From Candidatus Nanopelagicales bacterium (GTDB lineage: Bacteria > Actinomycetota > Actinomycetes > S36-B12): a stretch of 64,000 bases of DNA. Positions 20,431-38,278 of the stretch are shown here, one piece after another. Below the pieces are notes generated by a model, which worked only from the letters and a program-made list of their open reading frames with translations, had not been told where the DNA came from and made no database searches. Position numbers and translations under genes: made by a program. Position 1 is the first letter of the stretch. Every line of letters starts with the position of its first letter. The stretch spans positions 1 to 64,000 of the forward strand of contig JAQTZL010000006.1 of assembly GCA_028687755.1 (NCBI GenBank), in the 5' to 3' direction.

Positions 20431-20467
20431 GGTATGGCAACCCTTACCTTTGTTCTACGGCCATACC
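20431..20467. promoter_or_regulatory. Inverted repeat upstream of amidohydrolase 1
   Basis: GGTATGGC at 20431-20438 and GCCATACC at 20460-20467 form perfect 8-bp arms, 29 bp apart start to start, ending 33 bp before the ATG at 20501. The right arm overlaps ATACCGTAA, which matches one half of the 21-bp direct-repeat motif. The other half is not recognisable. Confidence 0.4.
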
Positions 20468-20500: not shown

Positions 20501-21766
20501 ATGAATATCAATGACATGGTGCTGGTGAGCATCGATGACCACATCATCGAAAATCACGACACCTTTAAAAATCACTTCCCTGAGTCCATGAAGGATCAGG
20601 CTCCAAAGCTCGTGAAGCACCCTGATCTTCCTGACGTTGATGCCTGGATGTTCCAGGGCGTATCCGTTGGCAGCCCAGGCTTGAGCGCTGTTGCGTCTTG
20701 GCCAAAAGAAGAGTGGAACTTCAACCCCACCGATCTTTCGGAAATGCGCCCAGGAACCTACGACATTCACCAACGTGTGCGCGACATGAATGCAAACGGT
20801 GTACTTGCTGGCATGAACTTCCCAACCTTCCCAGGCTTCGCAGGCACTCACCTTGCATCACTTCCAGATCAGGCTTTGTCACTCGTTGCCATCAAGGCAT
20901 ACAACGACTGGTTGATGGACGAACTGTGCGGTGCTTACCCAGGTCGCTTCATTCCGATGGGCATCATTCCGTTCTTTGACATGGAAGAGTCCGTTAAGGA
21001 AATTCATCGCCTTGCCGCAAAGGGCTGCCGCTCAATCACCTTGCCTGAAACTCCGTACGGTGTGGGACAAAAGAGTTTCGCTAGTGGTCACTGGGATCCA
21101 GTGTTTAAGGCCATGGTCGACACCAACATGGTGGCTTCACTGCACATCGGTGGCGGCTTTGGTTTGTTGAAGCGCCCAGATGAATTCCTCATCGATGACA
21201 TCGTCATTCTGGCGTCACTCATTTCAACTGTTGCATGTAGCGACATCATGACCAGTGGCGTGATTAAGCGTTTCCCTGACATGAAATTTGCCATGAGTGA
21301 AGGCGGCATCGGTTGGGTTCCATTCTTCCTTGACCGCATGGATCGCCACATGATCAACCAGTCATGGACTCATTTGGACACCATGCCAAAGGGCATGACT
21401 CCAACTGAAGTGTGGAAGAAGAACTTCATGGCCTGCTTCATCACTGATCCAACGGGTCTGACTACTCGCGATCGTTACGGTGTTGAAACCATTTCATGGG
21501 AATGCGATTACCCACATTCAGATTCAACATGGCCTTACTCACCAGAAGTGTTGATTCAGGAACTTGAAGCTGCGAAGTGCAGTGACGCAGAGATCAACAT
21601 GATCACGCATGAAAACGTCGCACGCTTCTTCGACTGGGATCCGTTCAAGCACACACCACGCGACCAAGCAACTGTTGGTGCACTTCGCGCACTTGCAACT
21701 GATGTTGATGTGAGCGAAACATCAAAGCTTGAATACAAGCGTCGTTGGGCAGAAACACACGCATAA
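20501..21766 (+). CDS. Amidohydrolase-superfamily protein (ACMSD/LigW-like), copy 1
   Basis: This 421-residue TIM-barrel protein is of the amidohydrolase 2 type (PF04909). Probable metal or catalytic residues are in SIDDHIIE near residue 10, LHIGGGFG (His) in mid-barrel and WECDYPHSDSTWPYS near residue 330. The first motif has DxH rather than the classic HxH. Relatives hydrolyse or decarboxylate ring-derived carboxylates. The open frame reaches back to 20429, but GAGAGG upstream and the paralogue's start support ATG 20501. A near-identical gene follows at 21963. Confidence 0.9.
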   Translation: MNINDMVLVSIDDHIIENHDTFKNHFPESMKDQAPKLVKHPDLPDVDAWMFQGVSVGSPGLSAVASWPKEEWNFNPTDLSEMRPGTYDIHQRVRDMNANGVLAGMNFPTFPGFAGTHLASLPDQALSLVAIKAYNDWLMDELCGAYPGRFIPMGIIPFFDMEESVKEIHRLAAKGCRSITLPETPYGVGQKSFASGHWDPVFKAMVDTNMVASLHIGGGFGLLKRPDEFLIDDIVILASLISTVACSDIMTSGVIKRFPDMKFAMSEGGIGWVPFFLDRMDRHMINQSWTHLDTMPKGMTPTEVWKKNFMACFITDPTGLTTRDRYGVETISWECDYPHSDSTWPYSPEVLIQELEAAKCSDAEINMITHENVARFFDWDPFKHTPRDQATVGALRALATDVDVSETSKLEYKRRWAETHA

Positions 21767-21913: not shown

Positions 21914-21934
21914 CTATCGAAAGTATTTCCGTAA
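21914..21934 (+). promoter_or_regulatory. Direct-repeat motif site upstream of amidohydrolase 2
   Basis: The plus strand reads CTATCGAAA, GTA, TTTCCGTAA, ending 28 bp before the ATG at 21963. On the other strand this is two direct repeats of a TTNCGNNAA-like unit 12 bp apart. CCATCGG follows, as it does at the 31.78-kb site. It is one of four strong copies in the window. Confidence 0.6.
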
Positions 21935-21962
21935 ACCATCGGAATTGGAGAGTGAGAAGTAG

Positions 21963-23234
21963 ATGAATATCAATGACATGGTGCTGCTGAGCATCGATGA
22001 TCACATCATCGAAGGCCCAGATACCTTTGCAAAGCACTTCCCAGAGTCAATGAAAGACCAAGCTCCAAAGCTCGTGAAGCATCCCGATAATCCAAACGTT
22101 GATGCCTGGATGTTCCAAGGTGTTTCTGTTGGTAGCCCAGGCCTCAGCGCTGTGGTGTCGTGGCCAAAGGAAGAGTGGGGCTTTGATCCAACTGACATTT
22201 CGGAGATGCGCCCAGGTACCTACGACATTCATCAGCGCGTACGCGACATGAACGTCAACGGCGTGCTTGCCGGCATGAACTTCCCAACCTTTCCAGGCTT
22301 CGCAGGCACTCACCTTGCATCGCTGCCAGATAAGAAACTGTCGCTCACAGCGATCAAGGCATACAACGATTATCTGCTTGATGAACTCTGCGGCGCATAC
22401 CCAGGCCGCTTCATTCCTATGGGCATTATTCCTTTCTTCGACGTTGATGAATCAGTCAAGGAAATCAACCGTCTTGCTGCAAAGGGTGTTGGCTGTCGTT
22501 CCATCACGATGCCAGAAACCCCTTACGGCGTTGGTATGCCGGACTTCTCAACCGGATACTGGGATCCAATTTTCAAGGCACTTGTTGACACCGACATGGT
22601 TGCATCCATGCACATTGGTGGTGGCTTTGGTTTGATCCAGCGCCCACCAGTGACACTTCCAGATGACATCGTCATCTTGGCGGCACTCGTATCAACGATT
22701 GCTGCATCAGACTTGCTCACCAGCGGTGTGCTCAAGCGCATCCCTGATATCAAGTTTGCAATGAGCGAAGGCGGATTGGGTTGGATTCCATTCCTTCTTG
22801 ATCGCATGGATCGTCACATGGTGAACCATTCATGGACACACCTTGATTCCCTGCCAAAGGGCAAGACTCCAACCGAGGTTTGGAAGGACAACTTCCTTGC
22901 CTGCTTCATCACTGAGCCAACTGCGCTCCTTACCCGCGAGCGCTATGGCACTCACACCATTGCTTGGGAATGTGATTACCCACACTCAGATTGCACCTGG
23001 CCATACTCACCTGAGTTGTTGCTGAAGGAACTCGAAGCTGCAAACTGCAGTGACAAGGAAATCGACATGATCACGCACGAGAATGTCGCGAACTTCTTCA
23101 ACTGGGATCCGTTCAAGCACACGCCACGTGATCAAGCAACCGTTGGTGGCCTTCGTGCACTTGCAACAGATGTGGACACAAAGGAAACCTCAAAGGCTGA
23201 ATACCGCCAGCGTTACGAGGCTGCACGGGCTTAG
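21963..23234 (+). CDS. Amidohydrolase-superfamily protein (ACMSD/LigW-like), copy 2
   Basis: This 423-residue protein is a tandem paralogue of the product of 20501-21766, by eye about four residues in five identical. All putative metal and catalytic motifs are kept: SIDDHIIE, MHIGGGFG and WECDYPHSD. It has two extra residues in the KGVGCRSI segment. Differences cluster in the region after the mid-barrel His (IQRPPVTLPDD versus LKRPDEFLIDD), which may shape the substrate pocket. Its promoter carries the 21-bp direct-repeat motif, unlike the half site of copy 1, so the copies may be regulated differently. Confidence 0.92.
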   Translation: MNINDMVLLSIDDHIIEGPDTFAKHFPESMKDQAPKLVKHPDNPNVDAWMFQGVSVGSPGLSAVVSWPKEEWGFDPTDISEMRPGTYDIHQRVRDMNVNGVLAGMNFPTFPGFAGTHLASLPDKKLSLTAIKAYNDYLLDELCGAYPGRFIPMGIIPFFDVDESVKEINRLAAKGVGCRSITMPETPYGVGMPDFSTGYWDPIFKALVDTDMVASMHIGGGFGLIQRPPVTLPDDIVILAALVSTIAASDLLTSGVLKRIPDIKFAMSEGGLGWIPFLLDRMDRHMVNHSWTHLDSLPKGKTPTEVWKDNFLACFITEPTALLTRERYGTHTIAWECDYPHSDCTWPYSPELLLKELEAANCSDKEIDMITHENVANFFNWDPFKHTPRDQATVGGLRALATDVDTKETSKAEYRQRYEAARA

Positions 23235-23252
23235 TTCTTTGGGCAGAACTAA

Positions 23253-23290
23253 AAAGAAGTCCCGGTGGCTAGCGCCACCGGGACTTCTTT
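23253..23290. terminator. Bidirectional intrinsic terminator
   Basis: A perfect 17-bp stem (23253-23269 with 23274-23290, core GAAGTCCCGGTGGC) has A and T runs at its ends. It separates the convergent amidohydrolase 2 gene and small minus-strand gene. Confidence 0.9.
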
Positions 23291-23306
23291 ACGTTTATTC
23301 GTTGAA

Positions 23307-23603
23307 TTAGTCGGAAGCTGGAAGAGCTGAAGCCTGCTTCTGTGAAAGTTCTGCGCCCTCGAAGGTGAGTGGACCTTCGCCTGGTGCAACAACCAACACT
23401 TCAATTCCCACTTCATCGTTGCTGTAGCGCTTGCCGAGGGCGATAACTTCGCCTGCGCCCACAGTAGGCGAACCTTCACGAGCATCGGTGGTCATGACCA
23501 CACCAGCGCAAGAGAGTTCACCGGCTTGGGTTGGAGCCTTCACGACGACAACTTCGCAACCTGAAGTGTTGTTACGAAGACGGGCACCTGGTGCAACTGG
23601 CAT
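23307..23603 (-). CDS. Small conserved protein of unknown function
   Basis: This 98-residue protein starts MPVAPGARLRNNTSGCEVVVVKAP and has SCAGVVM in the middle. The layout (an early strand with CEVVVVKAP, then a cysteine-containing xCxGxxM segment) resembles small actinobacterial proteins of unknown function found near CoA-ligase genes, but this is from memory. It appears beta-rich, with no signal peptide or membrane segment. AAAGGA seven bases upstream favours the start at 23603 over the in-frame ATG at 23624. It stands alone between a terminator and a divergent phosphoesterase gene. Confidence 0.7.
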   Translation of the reverse strand: MPVAPGARLRNNTSGCEVVVVKAPTQAGELSCAGVVMTTDAREGSPTVGAGEVIALGKRYSNDEVGIEVLVVAPGEGPLTFEGAELSQKQASALPASD

Positions 23604-23836
23604 TGAGTATTCCTTTCGAGGCACACCGTCGTTCGGGGTGGAACGCGGTGGAGTTCAAATTGTGGCGGTTCTTGTGTGCTGATGCTATGCCAAGCGGGAT
23701 GTGATCTGCCTCCCAGTCGGCTAATTTCACCACCGCGGTAAGCCATTACGCCAGTCCAATCCGGTCAACTCGCCTATTTGGATTCATGCCTTGGCCTAGA
23801 GTCACTCGCGTTGGCCGCAACCCATCTGGAGTCCAT

Positions 23837-24433
23837 GTGAAGCTCGGCATCGTTTCCGATGTTCATTGTCAGGATGAACATCTGCAGCGAACAGTGGAAT
23901 CCATGATCGCCGATGGGGTTGATGAAATCCTGTGTGCCGGCGATGCTCAGTATGAATATCGCCTCAGCAATGAAGTCACCGAAATTATTCGAGACAATCA
24001 GATTCGCTATATCCAAGGCAATCATGAATGGGTCTTGATGGGTCCAAATGGCGAACGCGCTCGCTCAGGAGAACACGTACGCAAATCGAATCTTGACTTC
24101 ATCGCCGAAACACCTGACGAAATCCGTACTACGGTCAGTGGCAAAACACTGCTGATGACTCACGCAAGCCCTTGGGCACCACGCGGTCACTACCTGTATG
24201 CAGGCGACCCACTGTTTTCACGATGCGATGAATTGGATGCAGATTATTTAATTATTGGTCATACCCATGTGCCGATGGTCGAACGATTTGGTCGCACACT
24301 CGTGATTAATCCTGGATCACTTGTGTTTTCTCGAGAACCTGGTGCTTACGGAATGCTCTCGTACGTAATTCTTGACACCACAACGGATGAAGTCACAATG
24401 ATGCATCCGCCAAAGGATTCCCAAGCTTCGTAA
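23837..24433 (+). CDS. Calcineurin-like metallophosphoesterase (YfcE/MJ0936 type)
   Basis: This protein of about 198 residues has the five metallophosphoesterase blocks: SDVH, GDAQ (a variant of GD), GNHE, a single His in MTHASPWAPRG, and GHTH. NPGSLVFSRE near the end is typical of YfcE-like phosphodiesterases. It uses two metal ions to hydrolyse phosphoesters; the substrate is unknown. The GTG at 23837 with CTGGAG upstream fits the start of homology. An ATG at 23786 adds 17 residues. It is probably a housekeeping gene within the island. Confidence 0.88.
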   Translation: MKLGIVSDVHCQDEHLQRTVESMIADGVDEILCAGDAQYEYRLSNEVTEIIRDNQIRYIQGNHEWVLMGPNGERARSGEHVRKSNLDFIAETPDEIRTTVSGKTLLMTHASPWAPRGHYLYAGDPLFSRCDELDADYLIIGHTHVPMVERFGRTLVINPGSLVFSREPGAYGMLSYVILDTTTDEVTMMHPPKDSQAS

Positions 24434-24444
24434 TGCGCTGAGAG

Positions 24445-25452
24445 TTATGCGAGATGAGCGGCCAGGACTGGTACTTCCGCAAGTGCACGCAACGCATCAT
24501 TCATGTGTGTACATCCATCAATACCAGGCAACAGCACATTCACGTTTGAGCGGAAATCGCGAATAGGTTGACCCACCAAACGATGCACCGACAATGTTGC
24601 CATTGGGCATTCCAAGAATGGAAGCACTTGAGGTATCGCTTCAATAGCTGTTACAAGGCCACTCACGACATTCACTCGCGCCTGAATCGTGTATTCATGC
24701 ACTGCGATTCGATTGCCAGATGGTGCGGTTCCCGAATCTTGGAAGAACGAATCAATGACCCACTCGTCTTCCTCGCGCCAGACATCGATTCGACGTGATC
24801 TGCGAGCAGAAACTTCGGTGGTCTCGAATAGTTCATGCCATGCGTAAGGGTCAAATTCCACAGGAAGATTCGGCACAACTCGAGTTGCGTGTTTTGCTGG
24901 TGGGCCATCTTCACCTAACGCAGATGCACCTTGTTGGAACCCAGCGCAAATCCCCACCATTTTAAGTTTGCGCGATTTGATATCTGGATCCAACGAGTCC
25001 ATTTTCGGTAATTCACCTGGGGCCATCCAATGAGTAAATGCGAATCCCGAAACCAAGGTCGCCCCAGAAATATCGTCAAGTAAAAGATACAGAGGTGTTC
25101 CCCTTTGAACTTGATCTGGAAATGACTCAACAATTTTGGTGCGCAACCCACCCTTCATATCGATCAGGACATCGATTCCCTCGAGTGCTGGAATGGTGGA
25201 AATCTCACTGATTACTCGATTCGGGCGAACCGTGACGTTCAGAACATCTTCTGCAATCACAGCCGGCGAAGAGTTGTCGGCGGGTGTGAAGAGGTCACGA
25301 CATCTACCAATGAGGTGCATATCTGCATCGCGAATATCCCCATCCCATGTCGCGTCAATGGTTGAAGTACGTCGGATTGAATTGTTCCTGCGAGCAGGGG
25401 TTGGTACGGCTGGGCCAATGGGTTGAATGCCAGCAGGCACATCGACAGCCAT
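24445..25452 (-). CDS. DUF2889 protein (copy 1)
   Basis: This protein of about 335 residues is of the DUF2889 type. It has an early IRRTSTID block, GTPLYLLLDDISGA mid-protein, FFQDS, AVHEY and the C-terminal signature GCTHMNDALRALAEV. No function is established. The Cys-Thr-His motif could bind a metal or be catalytic, but that is inference. AAAGGGAAAGC before ATG 25452 supports that start; the frame is open to 25521. A paralogue lies 52 bp upstream and a third copy is at 48563, always among CoA-ester genes. Confidence 0.85.
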   Translation of the reverse strand: MAVDVPAGIQPIGPAVPTPARRNNSIRRTSTIDATWDGDIRDADMHLIGRCRDLFTPADNSSPAVIAEDVLNVTVRPNRVISEISTIPALEGIDVLIDMKGGLRTKIVESFPDQVQRGTPLYLLLDDISGATLVSGFAFTHWMAPGELPKMDSLDPDIKSRKLKMVGICAGFQQGASALGEDGPPAKHATRVVPNLPVEFDPYAWHELFETTEVSARRSRRIDVWREEDEWVIDSFFQDSGTAPSGNRIAVHEYTIQARVNVVSGLVTAIEAIPQVLPFLECPMATLSVHRLVGQPIRDFRSNVNVLLPGIDGCTHMNDALRALAEVPVLAAHLA

Positions 25453-25504
25453 GCTTTCCCTTTCCTCGGCCGGTCTGCAGTGAGTACCGGCTTGTGTGAC
25501 AAAA

Positions 25505-26509
25505 CTACTGAAGTGAAGCAACCAGGATTGGAACTTCAGCTAGCGCACGAAGTGCATCATTCAAATGCGTGCAACCCAAGGTTCCAGGTAATTGATCTAC
25601 CACTGCTTGGCGGAAGTCTTGTACTGGAATTCCGATCATGCGGTGCACGTTCTTCGCTGCCTGAGGGCAAGCATCAAAGGGAAGCACTCTTGGATCTACA
25701 TTCAAAGTTAGCAATTCGCCAGTGTGCAGATCTGCCGTCCCGTTCAAGCAGTATTCGTGGACTGCAACTCTGCCGTGGCTTGGTGTCGTGCAGCTGTCTT
25801 GGAAGTACGCATCAAAATGAATGTCATCATCAATCCACGCGTCGATGCGTCGCGCACGACGCAAGGCAGGTTGATCAGTTTCATCTTGAAGTTTGTGCCA
25901 AGCAAGTGGATCCGTATCAGTTGTCAGAGGGCCCGCAGGTTGCACCTGATGGATGAGTAGACACTTTCCATCTTCGCCAATTGCGTTTGATCCAGCTGCA
26001 TAACCCATACATACGTCGATGGGAGCCATGAAGTCGCCACTCATGTGAGAACTTCGCTGCTCAGGCGCAATCCATTCAACAAGCACATGGCCTGAAATGA
26101 ATAACGCGCCTGGCATGTCATCCAGCAATAAATACAAGGGGCTTCCCGCTTCTCGTTCTTCCGGAACGAGGCTATTCATCACGCGGCGCGAGTTGGGTGT
26201 TCCTTCGGGCCCGACCATGGCTTGCAAAGCAGGGCGATCAGGAAAACTGAAGAGAAATTCATAGGAGCGGTCTTGGTTGACCGTCGCTACCAACACATCA
26301 TCTGCAAGAACTTTGGTCTCATCACCGTTGGTGAGGAAGTCACGCGCACGTCCGCGAACCCGTCGACTTTCTTGGAGTCCATTGGGAAAGTCGATGTCGA
26401 GTGTGGACGTTCGCCGAATTGAATGCGGCGGGCGAGGTGGACTTGGATTGCTCGGCCCACTAACTGCATTGGTGAGCACACGCCCAACAACGGGGAGTTC
26501 ATACGGCAC
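25505..26509 (-). CDS. DUF2889 protein (copy 2)
   Basis: This 334-residue protein is a paralogue of the downstream DUF2889 protein. It has SIRRTSTLDIDF near residue 30, GSPLYLLLDDMPGALFISGH, YFQDS, AVHEY and CTHLNDALRALAEV. A Pro-rich N-terminus (SNPSPPRPPH) probably is a flexible tail. The two genes run in the same direction and are probably cotranscribed. The first faces the SDR/DUF35/thiolase-like operon across a 160-bp divergent region with a strong motif copy. The function is unknown. Confidence 0.85.
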   Translation of the reverse strand: MPYELPVVGRVLTNAVSGPSNPSPPRPPHSIRRTSTLDIDFPNGLQESRRVRGRARDFLTNGDETKVLADDVLVATVNQDRSYEFLFSFPDRPALQAMVGPEGTPNSRRVMNSLVPEEREAGSPLYLLLDDMPGALFISGHVLVEWIAPEQRSSHMSGDFMAPIDVCMGYAAGSNAIGEDGKCLLIHQVQPAGPLTTDTDPLAWHKLQDETDQPALRRARRIDAWIDDDIHFDAYFQDSCTTPSHGRVAVHEYCLNGTADLHTGELLTLNVDPRVLPFDACPQAAKNVHRMIGIPVQDFRQAVVDQLPGTLGCTHLNDALRALAEVPILVASLQ

Positions 26510-26618
26510 GTTTCATCCTCAAGAGCGCACGGTCACTTCAATCACTTCGAGAGTAGCCGATGCCCGATTTGTCGGGAGTGTTTTGGTTCAAGCAATTTCG
26601 GTGAAACCCGGACAAGTC

Positions 26619-26639
26619 GTATCGAAAGATTTACCGTGA
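26619..26639 (+). promoter_or_regulatory. Direct-repeat motif site upstream of the SDR/DUF35/Ltp operon
   Basis: The plus strand reads GTATCGAAA, GAT, TTACCGTGA, ending 29 bp before the ATG at 26669. Both halves and the three-base spacing match the sites at 21914 and 31871. The near-constant distance to the start codon would also suit an alternative-sigma promoter. Confidence 0.6.
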
Positions 26640-26668
26640 GCCCACTGCCAATCGGAAAAGAGTCGTAC

Positions 26669-27475
26669 ATGAACATGCTGGATCTCACGGGCCGCGTTGC
26701 AATCATTACCGGTGGTGGAACAGGTATCGGAGCCACAACAGCACACCTCTTCGCCGAGCACGGCGCTGACGTCGTGCTTTCTGGCCGCAAGGTTGAACGC
26801 TTGCAGACCACCGCAGAAGAGATCATGGCCACAACTGGGCGCCGAGCAATTGCTGTACAGACCGACGTTCGCGAAGACGATCAAGTGCAGAACATGATCG
26901 ATCGTACGATCAATGAGTTCGGCCAACTCGACATTCTGATCAACAATGCCGGTGGGGCCTACATGTTTCCTACCAAAGACACCCCGCCGGATCGTTTCCG
27001 TAATGCCATCGAACTCAACCTGACATCTGCGTACCTGTGTGCACATGCCGCGCTTCCACATCTCTTGAAGTCCAAGCATGCCTCAATCGTTTCGATGTCA
27101 TCGGCAGCGGGCGTGCAAGGCGTCAAAGGCGGCTCTGCCTACTCAGCGGGCAAGGCTGGCTTGCAGATGTTCACCCGCGTGATCGCTGCCGAATGGGGTC
27201 CAAAGGGCGTACGCGCTAATGCGATTGCCGTTGGTGGTGTTGCCTCCGAAGGTGCGCTGCGTTCATGGGAGCGGTTTGGCATGGATGCGGAAAGCATGGG
27301 AGCGAATGTGCCCCTGCGTCGAGTTGGGTACCCAATCGATATTGCCAATGGTGCGTTGTTCTTCTGCAGTGAGATGAGCAGCTGGATCACAGGCCAAACA
27401 CTTTCCATTGATGGTGGCCCGCATGGGATGGGCGGACTCACTGATGACGCCCTATGGCCAGAAGACAGCGAATAG
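26669..27475 (+). CDS. Short-chain dehydrogenase/reductase
   Basis: This 268-residue classical SDR has TGGGTGIG near residue 14, NNAGGAYMFP, and catalytic Ser in SMSSAAG with Tyr/Lys in SAYSAGKAG. SGRKVERL suggests NADP binding. The ending has TGQTLSIDGGPHG. The frame is open far upstream (to 26423), but that part reads through the promoter, so the ATG at 26669 is used. It is the first gene of a three-gene operon with a DUF35 and a thiolase-like gene, and may oxidise or reduce the hydroxyl involved in the aldol-type step. Confidence 0.92.
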   Translation: MNMLDLTGRVAIITGGGTGIGATTAHLFAEHGADVVLSGRKVERLQTTAEEIMATTGRRAIAVQTDVREDDQVQNMIDRTINEFGQLDILINNAGGAYMFPTKDTPPDRFRNAIELNLTSAYLCAHAALPHLLKSKHASIVSMSSAAGVQGVKGGSAYSAGKAGLQMFTRVIAAEWGPKGVRANAIAVGGVASEGALRSWERFGMDAESMGANVPLRRVGYPIDIANGALFFCSEMSSWITGQTLSIDGGPHGMGGLTDDALWPEDSE

Positions 27476-27488
27476 AAAAGGAAACGAC

Positions 27489-27911
27489 ATGACAACTGAG
27501 GTTCTTCCACCCCTTCCGCTGCCAAATGAATTAACTGCACCCTTTTGGGATGGCGCAAACAATGGTCAATTGGTCATTCAACGTTGCAACGCTTGCGGAT
27601 ATTTCCAGCATGCACCGGAACCAATCTGTGCACACTGCTTAAGTTTTGACCTCGGTCATGCAGCGGTGTCCGGCAAGGGTTCGGTCTACACCTTCTGCAT
27701 TCCAACCCAGGCGTTCCATCCTTGGTTTGAAGACAAACTGCCATTTGTTCTCGCCGTTGTTGAACTTGATGAACAACCAGGATTGAAGATGATCACAAAC
27801 ATCGTGGAAATCGATCCCGAAAGTGTCAAGGTTGGCGATCGCGTTGAAGTCACCTTTGCTCCCCTCGGTGAAGGCTTCACCTTGCCCGTCTTCCGCCCAG
27901 CTGCCCAGTAA
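27489..27911 (+). CDS. DUF35 zinc-ribbon/OB-fold protein (pair 1)
   Basis: This 140-residue protein has a zinc ribbon with Cys33, Cys36, Cys47 and Cys50 (CNACG and CAHC), then an OB-fold with SGKGSVYTF and FAPLGEGF. DUF35 proteins bind CoA thioesters and pair with thiolase-like enzymes. In steroid side-chain degradation the DUF35 part of ChsH2 activates the aldolase Ltp2. AAAGGA before ATG 27489 supports the start. It lies 13 bp after the SDR gene and 30 bp before its thiolase-like partner. Confidence 0.92.
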   Translation: MTTEVLPPLPLPNELTAPFWDGANNGQLVIQRCNACGYFQHAPEPICAHCLSFDLGHAAVSGKGSVYTFCIPTQAFHPWFEDKLPFVLAVVELDEQPGLKMITNIVEIDPESVKVGDRVEVTFAPLGEGFTLPVFRPAAQ

Positions 27912-27941
27912 CTACTGGCTTATCTACTTCAGGAGTTACTC

Positions 27942-29096
27942 ATGGCTAAAAAGAATCGTGTTGCAATCGTCGGTGTTGGTTACTCAGATGTAAGCCGCGG
28001 CAGCGGTCTAACTCTCGACAAGCTGACTGCGCAATCAAGCGTTGCTGCAATGAATGACGCTGGCATTAAGCCAACAGATATTGATGGCGTTGTGGTGCAC
28101 AGCTTCCCGCATCAGTTTGTTTCATCAACCCATACCGCTGCAATGCTCGGAATTCCTGATGTTGCTTTCTATTCAGGCAACGTTGACGGTGCTGCATACA
28201 GTGTCGCTGCCATGCACGCAATTGCTGCGATTGCTTCTGGTTCGGCTGAAACTGTGTTGACCCTTCGCACGGTCCATAAGGCAGGTGCTGCCGGCGGTGC
28301 AGCGATGCTTGGGCCACAGCGCGGCATTCCAGGCAACATGCAATTCGGTATGCCCTACGGATCATTTACCGGATCGCACTGGGCCGGCATGTACATGCAG
28401 CGCCACATGGCGATGTACGGATCAACTGAAGAAGACTTCGGTGCATTCGCAATCGCTCAGCGCAAGTTTGCCGTTGCCAACCCAACTGAATCCTTCTTCC
28501 ATGAAGAACTCACCATGGATGACTACATGAACTCGCGTTACATCGCAAAGCCACTGCATCTGCTCGACTGCGACTACCCGGTTGATTCATCCAGCGCATT
28601 GATCTTTACGACTGAAGAACGTGCACGTGACATGAAGCAAAAGCCAGTCTTCTTTGATTCATGGGCAAATGGCACCACCGCGGAAGCTGACTTCAGTTTG
28701 GTTCGCGACATGACCCATTCATCACCGTGGATGGCAGCAAAGCGCATGTGGTCACGCACGGATCTCAAGCCAAGCGATGTGAACACTGCTGGCCTTTATG
28801 ACGGTTTCAGTTTCATCGCCATGCAGTGGTTGGAAGCACTTGGATTCTGTGACGAAGGGGGAAGCGGTGCTTTTGTTCGCTCAGGAGCAACAAGTGCTAC
28901 TGGTTCATTGCCAACGAACACTGACGGTGGAGCATGCAACGTTGGTCGTCGCCATGGTGCGAACTTCTTTATTGAAGTCACCCGTCAACTTCGTGGCACT
29001 GCAGGCGACCGCGCGCTGCCAAATAAGCCTGAGGTTGGTGTTGTGAGCAACGCAGTTGGTGGCTTTGCTGCTTGTGCGCTACTGACTGCAGAGTAG
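27942..29096 (+). CDS. Thiolase-like lipid-transfer protein, Ltp2-type (pair 1)
   Basis: This 384-residue protein has a thiolase fold of the SCP2/lipid-transfer group. At the usual nucleophile position it reads GNVDGAAYSVAAMHA, without a cysteine. AGLYDGFSFIAMQWLEALGF is typical of Ltp2-like retro-aldolases, which use tyrosines for C-C cleavage instead of thiolysis. The adjacent DUF35 partner supports this assignment. It would release a ketone or aldehyde from a hydroxylated side-chain CoA ester. AGGAG stands before the ATG. The stop is directly next to that of the convergent SRPBCC gene. Confidence 0.9.
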   Translation: MAKKNRVAIVGVGYSDVSRGSGLTLDKLTAQSSVAAMNDAGIKPTDIDGVVVHSFPHQFVSSTHTAAMLGIPDVAFYSGNVDGAAYSVAAMHAIAAIASGSAETVLTLRTVHKAGAAGGAAMLGPQRGIPGNMQFGMPYGSFTGSHWAGMYMQRHMAMYGSTEEDFGAFAIAQRKFAVANPTESFFHEELTMDDYMNSRYIAKPLHLLDCDYPVDSSSALIFTTEERARDMKQKPVFFDSWANGTTAEADFSLVRDMTHSSPWMAAKRMWSRTDLKPSDVNTAGLYDGFSFIAMQWLEALGFCDEGGSGAFVRSGATSATGSLPTNTDGGACNVGRRHGANFFIEVTRQLRGTAGDRALPNKPEVGVVSNAVGGFAACALLTAE

Positions 29097-29552
29097 CTAC
29101 TGAACTACTGGTGTCGCTGCATGCGTGGCAACACCAGTAGCAAGTTGCATACCGAGTTTGCCTAGAGCCAACTTCCAGAACCAGCCGGTGCCTACAAGCT
29201 TTGGACGAAACTGCGAACTCCATGTAATCGTGCACCCGGTAGCAGTTGGAGTGACGTCAACGTCGGCTCGGTAATCCTTCACCGCAACCAGTTTGCTTTC
29301 GTTCAGCGTGTACGCGAACTTTGTTGGCGCGTTGATTTCAACGATCTGCTCGAGATTCATCATCAAACCGCTGTTCCATTGACGGATTGCGCCAACACTC
29401 TCGCCGCCATCCACGCCTGGCGTATGCAGCGCGTAGGTCTTAATAGGACTCCACTGTGGCCAGGTCTCACCATGGGCAAGCAGTGCAAACACAGCCTCGG
29501 CCGATGCAGTCGACTCTGCGGTCGCACTGACTTTGATGAGTTCGCTAGCCAC
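29097..29552 (-). CDS. SRPBCC (START-like) family protein
   Basis: This 151-residue protein starts with a strand containing VSATAESTASAEAVFALLAHGETWPQWSP, a typical SRPBCC/polyketide-cyclase opening, and has repeated beta strands with GCTITW. The last 25 residues form a hydrophobic amphipathic helix (KLALGKLGMQLATG). Such proteins bind hydrophobic ligands in a helix-grip pocket. It lies 11 bp downstream of the enoyl-CoA hydratase gene on the same strand and is probably cotranscribed. The ligand is unknown. Confidence 0.85.
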   Translation of the reverse strand: MASELIKVSATAESTASAEAVFALLAHGETWPQWSPIKTYALHTPGVDGGESVGAIRQWNSGLMMNLEQIVEINAPTKFAYTLNESKLVAVKDYRADVDVTPTATGCTITWSSQFRPKLVGTGWFWKLALGKLGMQLATGVATHAATPVVQ

Positions 29553-29563
29553 AGCGGTGCTCC

Positions 29564-30409
29564 TTAACGTCCGGTGAACTTCGGTGCGCGCTTTTCCTTG
29601 AAGGCAAGCATGGCCTCCTGGCCGTCTGGGCCAGGACCCATACCGAGGTACGTAACCTCATCCTTCCACGACTGACGCATGTTCTGATCCAGAGCATCGT
29701 TGAGCTGGGCCTTTATCTGTCCGATCATGATTGTTGGTCCATTGGCCAAACGCTCAGCAACTTCGGTAGCTTTCGCGAGAACTTCAGCAGGCGGAACCAC
29801 AACGTTTACTAGGCCCCATTCAAGTGCCTTTGGCGCTGGGAGTGGATCTCCGAAAAGCGCGATCTCCTTAGCGCGCACTGGGCTCACGCTGCGAGAAAGA
29901 ATGTATGCAGCACTTGCTTCTAGCGGCAGACCACGCTGAACAAAGACTTCGCAGAAGCGAGCAGTTTCACCAGCAACGATGTAATCGGCGGCTAGAGCGA
30001 AGTTCGCACCAAAGCCATACGCCGCACCATCAACAGCAGCAACGATTGGCTTGAGGTTGTGCCACATTTTTTCGATAACGCGGTACCAACCATGCAGCAA
30101 GCCATCTTCGCGAGCAATGTGTTGCTGGAATCCACGGCGATAGTCCGCAGGAATTTCAATGTGATCCGCTTCAGTCAAGTCGGCACCCGAACAAAAAGCG
30201 CCGTCGGCACCATGAATCACTGCAGCACGAATGTCTGCATTGATGTTGACTTCATCAAGAGCCTTGAGAATCGCGTTGCGCAAAGGGTGCGTCACTGCAT
30301 TCTTAATATGCGGACGATTCAAAACAAGAAAGGCAACTTGATTCTTTACGTAGAAATCAAGGCCGGCTTCTTTCCATGCTGCGATATCTGGTCTTGTGTA
30401 ATGTTCCAT
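29564..30409 (-). CDS. Enoyl-CoA hydratase/isomerase
   Basis: This 281-residue crotonase-fold protein has the oxyanion-hole motifs HGADGAFCSGADLTEAD near residue 65 and DGAAYGFGANFALAAD near residue 120. The usual catalytic Glu position falls in RGLPLEASAAYILSR, where Glu stands in place of the commoner Asp. It hydrates or isomerises enoyl-CoA, though ring-opening or decarboxylase activity cannot be excluded for this superfamily. It shares a transcript with the SRPBCC gene. Confidence 0.92.
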   Translation of the reverse strand: MEHYTRPDIAAWKEAGLDFYVKNQVAFLVLNRPHIKNAVTHPLRNAILKALDEVNINADIRAAVIHGADGAFCSGADLTEADHIEIPADYRRGFQQHIAREDGLLHGWYRVIEKMWHNLKPIVAAVDGAAYGFGANFALAADYIVAGETARFCEVFVQRGLPLEASAAYILSRSVSPVRAKEIALFGDPLPAPKALEWGLVNVVVPPAEVLAKATEVAERLANGPTIMIGQIKAQLNDALDQNMRQSWKDEVTYLGMGPGPDGQEAMLAFKEKRAPKFTGR

Positions 30410-30518
30410 GAATCGTCATTCCTTTGTGAGTGTTCCGCTAAGACTTCTTGCATGAAGATCGTTGGAGCCACTATTTCATCTTCATCGGTTGTTTGTGCGA
30501 TGTGTTGGAAAGTAATAC

Positions 30519-30556
30519 AAAGAAGCGGCGTCCGGAATTCCGGACGCCGCTTCTTT
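30519..30556. terminator. Terminator, perfect 38-bp palindrome
   Basis: Two 19-base arms (core GAAGCGGCGTCCGGAA) meet with no unpaired loop in the sequence. AAA and TTTT ends suit termination on either strand. It lies 14 bp beyond the stop of amidohydrolase 3. Confidence 0.88.
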
Positions 30557-30570
30557 TACGTATCGAGCAA

Positions 30571-31713
30571 TTAGCCCTTGCGTGGGAAGTTGTACACGCG
30601 ACGAGCATTGAGTTCTGCTATCTTTGCGGCTTCATCATTTGGCACGTTTGCAAGTGACTCTTCGAGCATCTTGCGGGTGTGTGGCCAGTTGCTGTCTGAG
30701 TGTGGGTAATCCGACTCAAACATGATGTTGTCGATGCCAATGAGGTGGCGGGAGAAGATGCCTGCATCGTCGTAGATGAACGGTGCATACATGTTCTTGA
30801 ACCACAGCTCTGAAGGCTTGATTTCGCGGTTCACATCGTTGTACCAACGGTGGCGATCCCAGACGTAGTCAATACGCTCGAGCATGTAAGGAACCCAGCC
30901 AATGCCGCCTTCACTCAACACGAACTTCACATCTGGGTAGTTGTGGAACACAGGTGACAGCAACAATTCTGCGGTTGCGTTAGCTGAGTTCAACGCGAAG
31001 AGTGAAATACCGACGGTGAAGTTGGTGGTGACGCCTTCTGTTGACACGCCTGGTGGGAAACCACCTGAACCGAAGTGGATCGAGATTGGCATGTTGCGAT
31101 CGGTTGCTGCTTGCAGCATTGGGTTCCAGTGATCGGTGTGCCATGAAGGAAGGCCCAGACGATGTGGGAGCTCAACGAAGGTGAAACTCTTTGCACCCTT
31201 GTCGGCTGTGCGGTGAATTTCCTTGACCGTGAGGTCAACATCCCACCATGGCACGATCACAAGCGGAATCTGACGGTCTGGGTAAGCAGCACACCATTCG
31301 TCGATGATCCAGTCGTTGTATGCCTGGATTGATGCAAGGCCGAGTTCTTTGTCCTTGGAGGTCGCAAAGGTTGTGCCAGCGAAGCCAGCCATGTTCGGGA
31401 AGTTCAACTGTGCATGAACACCTTCGATGTCCATGTCTTTAATCCGCTCATGAATGTCATGGCAGCCATCGCGCATGTCATCATATGAACGAGGGTCCAT
31501 TGCGATGTCTTCTTTTGCACGGCCTGCGACTGCGTTCAACGCAAAGTTGCCTGCTTGTGCACCTTCGTATGTCCAGTGATCGCCATTGACTGCGTCACGA
31601 ACCAGATTCGGGCCGGCTTCCTTGAACTTGGCTGGAAGGCGATCGGTCCACACAGTTGGGTGTTCAATTACGTGGTCATCAACACTGATGATCTGTACGT
31701 CTTTTTCAAGCAC
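30571..31713 (-). CDS. Amidohydrolase-superfamily protein, copy 3
   Basis: This 380-residue protein belongs to the same amidohydrolase 2 group as the tandem pair at 20.5-23.2 kb but is more distant and about 40 residues shorter. The motifs are SVDDHVIEHP near residue 10, SIHFGSGGF in mid-barrel and FESDYPHSDSNWPHT near residue 330. The shared DDH, HFGSGG and DYPHSDSxWP blocks imply the same metal-dependent chemistry on a related substrate. It is divergent from a CoA-transferase gene; both promoters in that 212-bp region carry the 21-bp direct-repeat motif. Confidence 0.9.
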   Translation of the reverse strand: MLEKDVQIISVDDHVIEHPTVWTDRLPAKFKEAGPNLVRDAVNGDHWTYEGAQAGNFALNAVAGRAKEDIAMDPRSYDDMRDGCHDIHERIKDMDIEGVHAQLNFPNMAGFAGTTFATSKDKELGLASIQAYNDWIIDEWCAAYPDRQIPLVIVPWWDVDLTVKEIHRTADKGAKSFTFVELPHRLGLPSWHTDHWNPMLQAATDRNMPISIHFGSGGFPPGVSTEGVTTNFTVGISLFALNSANATAELLLSPVFHNYPDVKFVLSEGGIGWVPYMLERIDYVWDRHRWYNDVNREIKPSELWFKNMYAPFIYDDAGIFSRHLIGIDNIMFESDYPHSDSNWPHTRKMLEESLANVPNDEAAKIAELNARRVYNFPRKG

Positions 31714-31780
31714 GGGGGCCTCCTTGGCCGAAGGTGTTCTTTTATGGGGCAGAACTTCTCGGTCACCAGGACCGATGGCG

Positions 31781-31801
31781 TTACGGTAATACTTACGATA
31801 A
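31781..31801 (-). promoter_or_regulatory. Direct-repeat motif site upstream of amidohydrolase 3
   Basis: The plus strand reads TTACGGTAA, TAC, TTACGATAA, the clearest direct repeat of the set: two copies of TTACGRTAA 12 bp apart. It lies 67 bp upstream of the start at 31713, in the matching orientation. The flank CATCGG is shared with the 21914 site. Confidence 0.6.
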
Positions 31802-31870
31802 CTCCACGCAAGGGGTTTTCGGAAAGATTTTGAAGAATATTTTGTCCCTAAGAAAAGGCTGGCGTAACCC

Positions 31871-31891
31871 CTATCGAAACCATTACGGTGG
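31871..31891 (+). promoter_or_regulatory. Direct-repeat motif site upstream of the CoA-transferase
   Basis: The plus strand reads CTATCGAAA, CCA, TTACGGTGG, ending 34 bp before the ATG at 31926. The first half is identical to the 21914 site. With the 31781 copy it brackets the divergent promoter region. Confidence 0.58.
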
Positions 31892-31925: not shown

Positions 31926-33161
31926 ATGAGTGGTCCAATGAAGGGAGTGCGCGTTCTTGAGATCGCGCAGTTCACTTTCGTCCCTGCAGCAGGAGCAGTG
32001 CTTTGCGACTGGGGCGCCGACGTCATCAAGATTGAGCATGCCGTCACTGGCGATGCCCAGCGTGGTCTCGTTCGAGTGATGGGCCTTGATGCTCTGGCTC
32101 CAGGATCAAGTTTCTTCCCAATCATGGAAGGCCCAAACCGCGGCAAGCGCAGCATCGGTATGGACCTGACCAAGCCTGAGGCTCAGGAAATTCTTCGTGA
32201 ACTCGTGCTCAACAGCGACGTTCTCCTCACTAACTTCTTGCCAGGCCCACGCCGCAAGATGGGTATTGACGTTGATCAAATCAAGGCAATCAACCCAAAT
32301 ATCATTTACGTGCGCGGTACTGCCTTTGGTAACAAAGGTGACGAGCGCGACAAGGGTGGTTACGACTCAACGGGTTTCTGGGCTCGCAGTGGCGCAGGCT
32401 GGGCAACCACCTGGGATGACGCAACTGACCTCACTCAGATGCCAACCGGCGCTTTCGGTGACAACACCGGTGGCATGACCATTGCAGGTGGCGTCGCAGC
32501 AGCGCTATACAAGCGTGCAGTCACTGGCGAAGCATCAGTGGTTGACGTTTCGCTGCTTGGCGTTGGCGCATGGTCAACCCAGTTTGGCTCAAACCTTGCC
32601 ATGCTTATTGGCGGACCAACCCCCGCTCCAAAGCGCGTTCCACCTGCTGGCACACCAGGCAACCCGCTCACTGGTTCGTACCGCACCAAGGATGGCCGCT
32701 TCATCATGTTGACCATGTTGCAGCCAGGTCAGTACTGGCCAATGTTCTGCGATGCGTTCAACAAGCCTGATTGGAAGGCAGATCCTCGCTTTGCAGATGC
32801 CGGCTTAATCGTGCAAAACGGTTACGAAGGCCGCGCCTTGGTTGCTGAACTTTTTGCGTCAATGAACCTTGAAGAGCTCAAGGCCGTCCTAGGAACCCAG
32901 ACTGGTCAATGGGCAGTTGTTCAAGACTTCTGGGAAATCAGCCAAGACAAGGGTCTTCGCGACAACGGCTTGATCGCCAAGGTCGTCGACGCTGATGGCA
33001 AGGACCGCGAGCTCGTTGCCAGCCCAGTGCTCTTCGACGAAGTGAACCCAACCCTTACCCGTGCACCACAGTTCGCTGAGCACACTGATGAGGTCATGCG
33101 TGAGCTTGGCATCAACGACGAGAAGCTCATTGAGCTCAAGATCGCTGGCGCAATCACCTAA
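31926..33161 (+). CDS. Family III CoA-transferase (CaiB/BaiF type)
   Basis: This 411-residue protein moves CoA between acyl groups through an aspartyl-CoA intermediate. The start GVRVLEIAQFTFVPAAGAVL and WGADVIKIEH is typical. The catalytic Asp is expected in GAFGDNTGGMTIAGG near residue 182. RTKDGRFIMLTMLQ marks the C-terminal half. It probably activates a substrate acid with a CoA ester as donor. AAGGAG lies before the ATG. It is followed by a terminator and then a dehydrogenase gene. Confidence 0.93.
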   Translation: MSGPMKGVRVLEIAQFTFVPAAGAVLCDWGADVIKIEHAVTGDAQRGLVRVMGLDALAPGSSFFPIMEGPNRGKRSIGMDLTKPEAQEILRELVLNSDVLLTNFLPGPRRKMGIDVDQIKAINPNIIYVRGTAFGNKGDERDKGGYDSTGFWARSGAGWATTWDDATDLTQMPTGAFGDNTGGMTIAGGVAAALYKRAVTGEASVVDVSLLGVGAWSTQFGSNLAMLIGGPTPAPKRVPPAGTPGNPLTGSYRTKDGRFIMLTMLQPGQYWPMFCDAFNKPDWKADPRFADAGLIVQNGYEGRALVAELFASMNLEELKAVLGTQTGQWAVVQDFWEISQDKGLRDNGLIAKVVDADGKDRELVASPVLFDEVNPTLTRAPQFAEHTDEVMRELGINDEKLIELKIAGAIT

Positions 33162-33177
33162 TTCGCCAACGTGACTT

Positions 33178-33211
33178 CGAGAGGCTCAGTTCTTCGGAAC
33201 TGGGCCTCTCG
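33178..33211 (+). terminator. Intrinsic terminator with UUCG tetraloop
   Basis: A 15-bp stem with one G-U pair (33178-33192 with 33197-33211) closes the very stable C(TTCG)G tetraloop. It is followed by GCTTTTCT, downstream of the CoA-transferase gene. Confidence 0.9.
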
Positions 33212-33298
33212 GCTTTTCTAGGCCATTTGGGATAAAGAGTTCGATAATTCCGCTATTCTTTTTCTCGTTTGGTCGTTGAACTTTCGAAAGGAACTGCC

Positions 33299-35434
33299 AT
33301 GTCCCTGGCTCTCACCGAAGAACACCGCTCACTCGCGGACGTTGCTCGCTCATTGCTCGCCGACAACGGAGGCATCGCGCAGGCTCGCGCAACGCTTGAC
33401 GCGCCAACAGAAGTGCTCCCAGCATTCTGGGCACCTTTCATTGACAACGGCATGTTTGGTCTTCACTTGCCTGAAGAATTCGGCGGCCAAGGCTTTGGCC
33501 TCGAAGAGACCGCCATCGTTGTTGAAGAACTTGGTCGCGTTGTTGCACCAGGTGCCTTCCTTCCAACGGTTGTTGTTTCAGCAACCATCGCTGCTGCAGG
33601 CACCGACGCACAGAAACAAGCATTGCTTCCAGGTTTTGCAGAGGGCACATCTAGTTCAGGTTTCTCGCTGCGCAACAACGTCAGCGTTGCAGGCGGCAAG
33701 GCGAGCGGAACCGCAAAGTCAGTAACTTCTGCTGAACTTTCAACGCACCTTGCATTTGTTGTTGGTAATGACCTCGTCATCGTTCCTGCATCAAATGCAA
33801 CCATCACGCCTAATAAGTCAATTGATGATTCCCGTCGCAATGCCAAGGTTGAACTCAAGGATGCACCTGCAGAAGTCATCGTTGGTGGTGGCGAACTCGC
33901 TCTTCGCATCGGTCGCGTGCTTGCTGCAGCAGAAGCTGCAGGTGGTGCACGTATAACCACAGAACTTGCAACCGAATACGCGAAGATTCGCGAACAGTTC
34001 GGTCGCACAATCTCAACCTTCCAGGCCATCAAGCATCACTGCGCCAATATGTTGATTCAGACAGAGATGGCAACAGCTGCTGCTTGGGATGCCGCTCGTA
34101 CCGTTCTTGATCCAAAGGCTGGCCCAATCGCAGCAGCTGCAGCAGCAGCTCTCGCATTGCCAGCCTTTGAATTCAATGCTCGCAAGAACATTCAGATCCA
34201 CGGCGGTATCGGCTTCACTTGGGAGCACGATGCACATCTGTACTTCAAGCGTGCTGCTGCAACTGCAGTAATTTTCGGAACCTCCGATGATGCTGCAGCT
34301 GACCTCACTGCGTTAAGCGCAAACGGCAACCATCGTGTGTATGCCTTCGATCTACCTGAAGAAGCTGAAAGCTTCCGTGCAGAAGCAAAGGCTGCAGTTG
34401 CTGCCTATCACGCAGCTGCAGATGCTGATAAGCGTCGCGTGCTCTTTGAATCCGGTTACTTGGTTCCTCACTGGGGCAAGCCTTGGGGTCGTCAGGCATC
34501 GGCTGTTGAGCAGATTGTGATCGAAGAAGAGTTCACCGGAATTGATGTTCCTAACCTCGGCATCACCGGCTGGGTTGGTTTGACCTTGTCGCAACTGGCT
34601 ACCGAAGATCAGGTTCAGCGTTGGTTGCGCCCAGCAATGCTCGGTGAAACGGTGTGGTGCCAGCTGTTCTCGGAACCAGGTGCCGGATCAGACGCAGCCG
34701 CTGTTTCAACTAAGGCCGTCAAGGTCGATGGTGGCTGGAAGGTTGATGGCCAAAAGGTCTGGACTTCCGGCGCTCAGTACTGCCAGTTCGGTCTAGCAAC
34801 AGTGCGCACAGATCCAGAGGCACCAAAGCACAAGGGTGTCACCGCAATGGTGATCAAGATGGATGCACCAGGTGTAACCATCCGCCCACTTCGCGAAAAC
34901 AGTGGCGATGAAATGTTCAACGAAGTCTTTTTCGATGGCGTGTTTGTTGCAGATGAAGATGTCGTTGGTGACATCAATAACGGCTGGGCTGTCGCTCGCG
35001 CAACCCTTGGAAACGAGCGAGTGACCATCGGTGGTCAGGCTCGTAACGGTATTGATGCATACGACCTCATCGATCTCTTGCCAGGCGGCGTCAAGGCTGA
35101 TCTTGGTCATGATCGCGAAGTTGGCAAGCAGGTAGCACTCGAGCAGGTCATTCGCTTGATGAACCTTCGCGCTGCAACGCGTGCAGTTATTGGTTCAGGT
35201 CCAGGAGCTGAAGGCAACATCACCAAGGTTCTTGTTTCTGAACTTGCTCAGTCCACGACTGAAGTTGCAATGAAGCTGCTTGAAGATGGTGGCGTCGATG
35301 GTGAAAACGCAGAGATCACCTACCAGTACGTCTTCAATCGTTGCCTCACCATTGCAGGCGGCACTTCAGAAATTAGCCGCAACGTAATCGCTGAACGAAT
35401 CCTTGGAATGCCACGAGATCCACTGATTCGTTGA
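33299..35434 (+). CDS. Fused two-domain acyl-CoA dehydrogenase (FadE34-like)
   Basis: This 711-residue protein contains two complete acyl-CoA dehydrogenase modules. The N-terminal one (about 1-345) has QAIKHHCANM and HGGIGFTWEHDAHLYFKR. The C-terminal one (about 375-711) has LFSEPGAGSDAAA, VDGQKVWTSG and GGTSEISRNVIAERILGMP. This is the single-chain version of the alpha2beta2 enzymes, like mycobacterial FadE34, which acts on steroid side-chain CoA esters. AAAGGA before ATG 33299 supports the start over 33269. The stop overlaps the TTG start of the MFS gene. Two split pairs of the same enzyme type also occur in the window. Confidence 0.93.
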   Translation: MSLALTEEHRSLADVARSLLADNGGIAQARATLDAPTEVLPAFWAPFIDNGMFGLHLPEEFGGQGFGLEETAIVVEELGRVVAPGAFLPTVVVSATIAAAGTDAQKQALLPGFAEGTSSSGFSLRNNVSVAGGKASGTAKSVTSAELSTHLAFVVGNDLVIVPASNATITPNKSIDDSRRNAKVELKDAPAEVIVGGGELALRIGRVLAAAEAAGGARITTELATEYAKIREQFGRTISTFQAIKHHCANMLIQTEMATAAAWDAARTVLDPKAGPIAAAAAAALALPAFEFNARKNIQIHGGIGFTWEHDAHLYFKRAAATAVIFGTSDDAAADLTALSANGNHRVYAFDLPEEAESFRAEAKAAVAAYHAAADADKRRVLFESGYLVPHWGKPWGRQASAVEQIVIEEEFTGIDVPNLGITGWVGLTLSQLATEDQVQRWLRPAMLGETVWCQLFSEPGAGSDAAAVSTKAVKVDGGWKVDGQKVWTSGAQYCQFGLATVRTDPEAPKHKGVTAMVIKMDAPGVTIRPLRENSGDEMFNEVFFDGVFVADEDVVGDINNGWAVARATLGNERVTIGGQARNGIDAYDLIDLLPGGVKADLGHDREVGKQVALEQVIRLMNLRAATRAVIGSGPGAEGNITKVLVSELAQSTTEVAMKLLEDGGVDGENAEITYQYVFNRCLTIAGGTSEISRNVIAERILGMPRDPLIR

Positions 35435-36714: not shown

Positions 36715-36752
36715 TCTTGTCTTAGAAGCACTCGGTTATGAGAGGACCTGCC

Positions 36753-37793
36753 ATGCGTTTGTCGTACACCCTTGATTACACCAAAGATGTTGTTGCGCTC
36801 ACGCCGACAATTTTGGATCTTGAACAAGCGGGTCTAGATCTCCTTTGGTTACAAGAGGCCTACAGCTTCGATGCAGTTTCAGCGATTGGCTATCTCGCTG
36901 CGAAGACCAGCACGATCGGCCTTGGCACCGCGATCTTGAATGTGTACAGCCGTACGCCAGGTGTGTTGGGCATGACCGCAGCAGGCTGTGACCATCTCAG
37001 TGGCGGTCGTTTCCATCTTGGCCTTGGTGCATCAGGCCCACAGGTCGTTGAAGGCTTCCACGGCATGGCGTACTCCAAGCCACTAACTCGAACCAAAGAA
37101 GTAGTCGACATTGTTCGCAAGGTTGTTGGGCGCGAGGTTGTTGAGTACTCCGGTGACACCGTGAGTGTTCCGCTGACTAAGGAAGCCGGCGGCACAGGTT
37201 TAGGTAAGCCGCTCAAGCTCATCAACAAGCCAGACCGCTCAATTGTGCCGATCTACCTCGCCGCTCTTGGGGATAAGTCAGTAGAAACCGCAGCCGAAAT
37301 TGCTGAAGGTTGGCTGCCCTTCTTCTGGGTCCCAGAAAAAGCACAACAGGTATTTGGAGCCGCTTTGGCACCAGGCCTAGCCAAGCGCTCACCAGAACTC
37401 GGTTCCTTAGACATCGTTGCAAATACCACCGTGGCTATTGGCGACAATCTTGATCGTGACGCCCTGCTCGCGGGTATGCGCAATCACATTGCCCTGTATG
37501 TCGGTGGCATGGGTGCTCGCAATGCCAACTTCTACAACGATCTGGCCCAACGCATGGGTTGGGTGGATGAGGCGCTGGCCATTCAGGAGTTCTTCCTCAC
37601 TGGTAAGCGTGAAGAGGCAGCTGCAGCTGTTCCACAGGCTTGGCTTGATCAGGCAACCTTGGTGGGTCCAGCCTCCTTTGTTGCTGAACGCCTGGCTGCT
37701 TACAAGGAATCTGGTGTCACCAGCTTGGACATTACGATTCCAGCGGGTGTGGATCCAGTTGCAACAGTCGAGCAACTTCGTTCTTTGATGTAG
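36753..37793 (+). CDS. Luciferase-like monooxygenase, probably F420-dependent
   Basis: This 346-residue TIM-barrel protein of the luciferase-like (LLM) group starts MRLSYTLDYTKDV and has LWLQEAYSFDAVSAIGYLA, TIGLGTAILNVYSRTPG and GRFHLGLGASGPQVVEG, a set common in F420-dependent reductases or dehydrogenases of actinobacteria. The in-frame ATG at 36738 lies inside the sequence GAGAGGA that serves as ribosome binding site for ATG 36753, so the latter is preferred. Cofactor assignment (F420 versus FMN) is inferred from family resemblance. A terminator follows. Confidence 0.88.
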   Translation: MRLSYTLDYTKDVVALTPTILDLEQAGLDLLWLQEAYSFDAVSAIGYLAAKTSTIGLGTAILNVYSRTPGVLGMTAAGCDHLSGGRFHLGLGASGPQVVEGFHGMAYSKPLTRTKEVVDIVRKVVGREVVEYSGDTVSVPLTKEAGGTGLGKPLKLINKPDRSIVPIYLAALGDKSVETAAEIAEGWLPFFWVPEKAQQVFGAALAPGLAKRSPELGSLDIVANTTVAIGDNLDRDALLAGMRNHIALYVGGMGARNANFYNDLAQRMGWVDEALAIQEFFLTGKREEAAAAVPQAWLDQATLVGPASFVAERLAAYKESGVTSLDITIPAGVDPVATVEQLRSLM

Positions 37794-37802
37794 CAATTGG
37801 GC

Positions 37803-38260: not shown

Positions 38261-38278
38261 GAAGACGAGGAACATTCA

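Follow-up and report, generated by a model that had tools for sequence, protein, structure and literature searches.

Operator-like sites in one catabolic cluster

We analysed a stretch of 64,000 nt (the window, positions 1-64,000 of contig JAQTZL010000006.1) from the 2.5-Mb genome of a freshwater-type actinobacterium, in which a 19-bp inverted repeat, TAYCGWAA-N3-TTWCSGTA, recurs ahead of amidohydrolase, SDR and coenzyme A (CoA)-transferase genes. The four strong sites (Table 1) are genuine and have been kept through evolution in the genus, and the motif is probably the operator of a local, genus-specific catabolic regulon, at which a repressor acting as a dimer, and most likely a TetR-type protein, would shut the core promoters. 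The pattern TATCGWAA-N3-TTWCSGTRR (TATCGWAANNNTTWCSGTRR) has four exact matches in the window, which are these four sites only, and when up to two mismatches were allowed five matches were obtained against 0.04 expected from dinucleotide shuffles. Pattern scans (exact or with mismatches) were also used for whole genomes, and in the entire 2.5 Mb the exact pattern was found at the same four places only, with about 0.007 matches expected from base composition, an expectation that is circular when taken alone because the pattern was derived from the sites. For this reason the case for the sites rests on other genomes, and their conservation in other species is the independent evidence. When 2-3 mismatches are tolerated, the own genome yields no more matches than a reversed control.

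All four exact genome matches are intergenic, lie 28-67 bp ahead of a start codon within a single 10-kb catabolic cluster and are oriented in the direction of their gene. A sequence-only reading of the window had listed these four sites, whose sequences are all present where it placed them, and had put three of them 28-34 bp before the ATG, which agrees with the distances of 28, 29 and 34 bp (the fourth site is 67 bp from a GTG). It had described the genes as scattered, which is not so in this genome, where all of them are in the one 10-kb cluster. Its proposal of a regulon operator is borne out: the genome scan, named beforehand as a check on whether the motif also occurs inside genes or at unrelated genes, placed every exact match in intergenic sequence upstream of acyl-CoA-type catabolic genes, and the position is conserved across the genus.

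Conservation in the genus and order

The motif was searched in 85 genomes of the family and 166 of the order, the genus being represented by 9 genomes (including G059-G066). All 16 exact matches in the family set belong to this genus, where 6 of 9 genomes have them, and the other 76 genomes have none; the remaining genus members have sites at the same positions once 1-2 mismatches are allowed. With a wider pattern (TAYCG allowed) 18 of the 19 exact matches in the order fall in the genus; the lone match outside it (G159) is compatible with chance. The sites of the sister species precede orthologues of the same genes at similar distances (about 28 bp for amidohydrolase 2, about 30-38 bp for the SDR gene, 33-44 bp for the CoA-transferase and 64-89 bp for amidohydrolase 3). 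Sites ahead of amidohydrolase 1 (45-48 bp) and the DUF2889 gene 48563 (38-42 bp) are found in sister species, as is an unlinked site on another contig, 51-52 bp upstream of an MFS transporter gene; at the transporter G000, G060 and G065 have only a partly decayed form, TTCTCGAAAANCTTTCGATA. No motif was seen near distant mycobacterial relatives of amidohydrolase 3 (47-48% identity).

Within the spacers the sites stand out as conserved islands. An 8-species alignment of the 208-bp spacer that separates the divergent amidohydrolase 3 and CoA-transferase genes gives a mean pairwise identity of 0.88 at the 31781 site, the most conserved, and of 0.87 at the 31872 site, against 0.57 for the rest, and the top two 20-bp windows begin at 31781 and 31871, which are the coordinates reported earlier. 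Upstream of amidohydrolase 2 (6 species) site 21915 has an identity of 0.83 as compared to 0.56 for the remainder. It may be added that the named relatives derive from metagenomes, one of them being labelled Candidatus Nanopelagicales, and that from the isolate names we infer a freshwater lineage.

Two weaker copies of the earlier reading fared differently from the strong sites. The copy at 4257, just ahead of tetR, was rejected as a conserved operator since it is not conserved in four genomes, and it is probably a chance match. The copy at 16913-16933 has a motif score of 9.8 (27-31 for the strong sites) and its arms do not fit the motif, being enclosed in an element of other design (positions 16900-16937); this block is nearly invariant in four species and is therefore probably functional, probably as another operator of a different design. 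A further match is present at 45027, but relatives do not keep it in the form of this motif.

Architecture of the motif and the core promoters

The element is better read as an inverted than as a direct repeat, its centre being nearly free: over 26 distinct sites the arms agree on average at 5.6 of 8 positions as an inverted repeat and at 4.8 of 9 as a direct one. The direct repeat described earlier does hold at 31781 (8 of 9 bases) and gives way to the inverted repeat over the 26 sites; it arises from the right arm, TTACSGTAA, which is close to a palindrome on its own. At 3 of the 4 sites the right arm holds a -10-like TANNNT hexamer (TACCGT or TACGGT), and for these three promoters the spacing to a -35-like hexamer was computed by coordinates (Table 1). 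The right arm seems to double as an ordinary -10. The earlier suggestion of a nonstandard promoter with the two halves as its elements is not supported, as a distance of 12 bp between the halves is too short for a -35/-10 pair.

Table 1. Positions of the motif sites, core promoter hexamers, related elements, genes and candidate regulators (window coordinates unless stated otherwise).
Feature	Position	Strand	Sequence	Remarks
Operator site 1, upstream of amidohydrolase 2	21915..21934	+	TATCGAAAGTATTTCCGTAA	exact pattern match; 28 bp to ATG 21963
Operator site 2, upstream of SDR/DUF35/Ltp operon	26620..26639	+	TATCGAAAGATTTACCGTGA	exact pattern match; 29 bp to ATG 26669
Operator site 3, upstream of amidohydrolase 3	31781..31800	-	TATCGTAAGTATTACCGTAA	exact pattern match; 67 bp to GTG 31713
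Operator site 4, upstream of CoA-transferase operon	31872..31891	+	TATCGAAACCATTACGGTGG	exact pattern match; 34 bp to ATG 31926
-35-like/-10-like hexamers, SDR site 26620	26609-26614/26632-26637	+	CGGACA/TACCGT	spacing 17 bp; CTGACA in G066
-35-like/-10-like hexamers, amidohydrolase 3 site 31781	31806-31811/31783-31788	-	TTGCGT/TACCGT	spacing 17 bp; TTG kept in 8 species
-35-like/-10-like hexamers, CoA-transferase site 31872	31860-31865/31884-31889	+	TGGCGT/TACGGT	spacing 18 bp
Decayed counterpart upstream of amidohydrolase 1	20433..20452	+	TATGGCAACCCTTACCTTTG	about 48 bp to ATG 20501; aligns with strong sites of G061, G064 and G059
Decayed counterpart upstream of DUF2889 gene 48563	49600..49619	-	ATACCGTGAGGGCATCGATT	aligns with sites of G060, G061 and G066
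Weak copy ahead of tetR	4258..4277	+		shared only with G065; broken in G060, G062, G063 and G064
Conserved block enclosing weak copy 16913-16933	16900..16937	.	CATCTATGTAAATACGGTAGATAATTCGCTAATATT	about 38 bp, thiolase/SDR spacer; nearly invariant in 4 species
Amidohydrolase 1 (PF04909)	20501..21766	+		Pfam; regulon member in sister species by context
Amidohydrolase 2 (PF04909)	21963..23234	+		Pfam
SDR, DUF35 (ChsH2-like OB-fold) and Ltp thiolase-like genes, presumed operon	26669..29096	+		Pfam, open reading frames
Amidohydrolase 3, enoyl-CoA hydratase and polyketide-cyclase-like gene, presumed operon	29097..31713	-		Pfam
CoA-transferase III, double acyl-CoA dehydrogenase, MFS, F420-type luciferase-like, DUF35 and Ltp genes, presumed operon	31926..39475	+		Pfam; gene order kept in sister species
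TetR-family regulator (TetR_N, TetR_C_1), candidate	4279..5025	+		Pfam
FCD-type GntR, candidate, just beyond the window	contig 68,447-69,235			genus-specific, 9 of 9 genomes

Genes of the cluster and neighbouring elements

The gene kinds of the cluster (PF04909 amidohydrolases, CoA-transferase III, acyl-CoA dehydrogenases, Ltp/DUF35 pairs, enoyl-CoA hydratase, SDRs and an F420-type luciferase-like enzyme) recall the degradation of a steroid side chain or an alicyclic acid; no model names the substrate. Amidohydrolases 1 and 2 are tandem paralogues. The PF04909 amidohydrolases (20501-23234, 30571-31713 and relatives in G059-G066) are amplified in the genus, with up to 18 matches in G064 and 14 in G061, some of them next to TetR genes of their own; elsewhere in the family few close relatives occur. 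In the CoA-transferase operon, two acyl-CoA dehydrogenases are arranged in tandem within one 721-aa protein (33269-35434, forward strand). By eye, parA/parB, dnaA, gyrB and gyrA-like genes were seen at 109-123 kb of the same contig (C6), so that the cluster is not far from the presumed replication origin.

Two further elements were observed in the spacers. At 21866-21879 (forward strand), 35 bp upstream of site 21915, GGGACCAAAGTCCC is followed by TAAG; it is single in the window and conserved (0.81 against 0.56, 6 species). Its layout is that of a mycobacterial DosR box, and by this likeness a second regulator may act on amidohydrolase 2. In the thiolase/acyl-CoA synthetase spacer (44934-45129, reverse strand) a conserved hairpin block, CCCCC-ATGTGAG...CTCAC-TTTGGGGG and GTTGCCGTAGGG, has a fold z-score of -3.7; it has no Rfam match, covariation is weak over 5 sequences, and it is possibly a structured leader RNA.

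Candidate regulators

The TetR-family gene at 4279 has orthologues in 8 of the 9 genus genomes (60-86% identity) and at best about 29% identity over most of the length elsewhere in the family, and within the genus its helix-turn-helix core hardly varies. As the binder of the motif it is a tentative candidate at most, and some other regulator may bind instead. The FCD-type GntR encoded just beyond the window is a less likely candidate. No motif was found in the stretches around the gene, and FCD-type GntR operators have a palindromic core GT-N3-AC, while the centre of the consensus is AA-N3-TT. The genome has 10 TetR-type matches, and none of these genes carries a strong motif; apart from TetR 4279, C2:185384 is the only group with members in 8 of 9 genus genomes, and another conserved inverted repeat lies upstream of it. 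A phylogenetic profile cannot discriminate between the regulators, as the cluster, the TetR and the GntR are all genus-specific, and the conservation of the DNA-binding domain does not discriminate either.

The tetR/fadF spacer carries a conserved element (4193-4225) unlike the motif. Its form AGTTAT(AA)CTNATTGTG has 9 exact matches in the 9 genomes, all at fadF/tetR (4193-4225) or in the gntR promoter (contig position 68350), and the relaxed form AGTTAT(N0-2)CTNATTGTG occurs in these genomes solely at the tetR/fadF spacer and ahead of the genus-specific FCD-type GntR. Through this shared element the TetR and the GntR seem to be linked with one another, and they may be cross-wired.

Discussion

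In the mechanism that we favour, a dimer of a probably TetR-type repressor would bind the 19-bp inverted repeat in the -35/-10 spacer, where the right arm also holds the putative -10 hexamer at 3 of the 4 sites. The bound protein would keep RNA polymerase off a number of promoters in a single acyl-CoA/amidohydrolase degradation cluster and, in the sister species, would also shut a lone MFS transporter gene far from it. Its release would probably be triggered by a pathway intermediate, for instance an acyl-CoA. Repression, the -10 overlap, the protein family and the inducer are what we infer here, repression being the likeliest action because a protein on the palindrome would cover the spacer and the -10. 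The length of the palindrome is within the 14-24 bp range of the operators of TetR-type local repressors, and several copies stand ahead of co-functional catabolic genes and are rare elsewhere (4 of 4 exact genome matches in the cluster).

Several observations weigh against this mechanism. No regulator gene inspected (MarR and MerR genes were not surveyed) carries a conserved copy of the motif, though autoregulation is common for TetR repressors, and TetR 4279 is linked to the cluster in the window but its own weak operator copy is not conserved. The SDR site 26620 is less conserved than the others and has decayed in two near relatives, G060 and G065. Site 21915 carries TTCCGT where the others have TANNNT, the -35 hexamers are weak as a set, and the site at the MFS gene faces the opposite way.

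The weakness of the -35 hexamers, as at activated promoters, would suit an activator (e.g. IclR- or LysR-like) that binds the sites and recruits RNA polymerase, an explanation we regard as improbable though not negligible. IclR-type operators share a centre GAAA-N-TTTC, each genome has an IclR gene, and five genomes have a LysR gene next to the distant MFS site; this LysR was rejected, being absent from G059, G062, G063 and G064, which keep motif sites, and a location over the spacer and -10 is unusual for activators. About as improbable is a variant in which the regulator is an undescribed, genus-specific one, not autoregulated and of no known TetR type, that commands the degradation of a still unidentified compound in uncultured freshwater actinobacteria; in this reading two dimers could sit next to each other on the DNA, given the near-palindromic right arm and the 12-bp period.

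It is quite unlikely that a special sigma factor uses the motif itself as its promoter and recognises the two halves as the elements. The four sites do point to their own gene, 28-67 bp away, and the right arm resembles part of a promoter; but the halves are 12 bp apart from centre to centre instead of the approximately 23 bp of a -35/-10 pair (elements 16-19 bp apart expected), the element is palindromic over 26 sites, and the orientation is reversed at the MFS gene. Still less probable is a MerR-type activator site. The operators of the MerR-type LiuR are palindromes between the -35 and -10 of acyl-CoA catabolic promoters, as the motif is between the putative hexamers here, and work by an activator mechanism; At MerR sites, however, the spacer is lengthened to 19-20 bp and the -10 stays uncovered, whereas the motif has a spacing of 17-18 bp and includes the putative -10 in its palindrome. 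Chance likeness or a remnant of gene duplication, for which the tandem paralogy of amidohydrolases 1 and 2 and the choice of the pattern from the sites could be cited, is hardly credible for sites that lie in unrelated flanks ahead of different gene families, form the most conserved islands of the spacer and occur also at an unlinked transporter.

If the motif is such a repressor operator, it identifies, with no data other than sequence, genes that are regulated together in an uncultured freshwater lineage, namely the amidohydrolases, the CoA-transferase operon and the SDR/DUF35/Ltp operon, joined in sister species by the DUF2889 gene and the remote transporter. Such a regulon narrows which of the many CoA-ester genes of the cluster work together, and the motif can be used to search for the regulator and for the inducing substrate.

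Among TetR-type systems a close one is KstR2 of mycobacteria and rhodococci, which has three local sites 22-82 bp ahead of the starts with the 14-bp motif AnCAAGnnCTTGnT, present also ahead of kstR2 itself (PMC3068626). The regulon proposed here likewise consists of a local CoA-ester catabolic cluster with a few palindromic sites in divergent spacers; unlike KstR2, it has a different, 19-bp palindrome and no regulator gene with a conserved copy. EdcR of Caenibius tardaugens binds a palindromic operator (TnnCnnTACnAnTnGTAnnGnnA) over the -10 box of steroid-degradation promoters, and edcR has a weaker site of its own (PMC8700777). The palindrome in our window similarly overlaps a putative -10, but C. 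tardaugens is a proteobacterium, and both the operator sequence and the genes are other ones. By this comparison the motif would be an operator of an ordinary kind whose sequence appears new as far as the literature compared goes.

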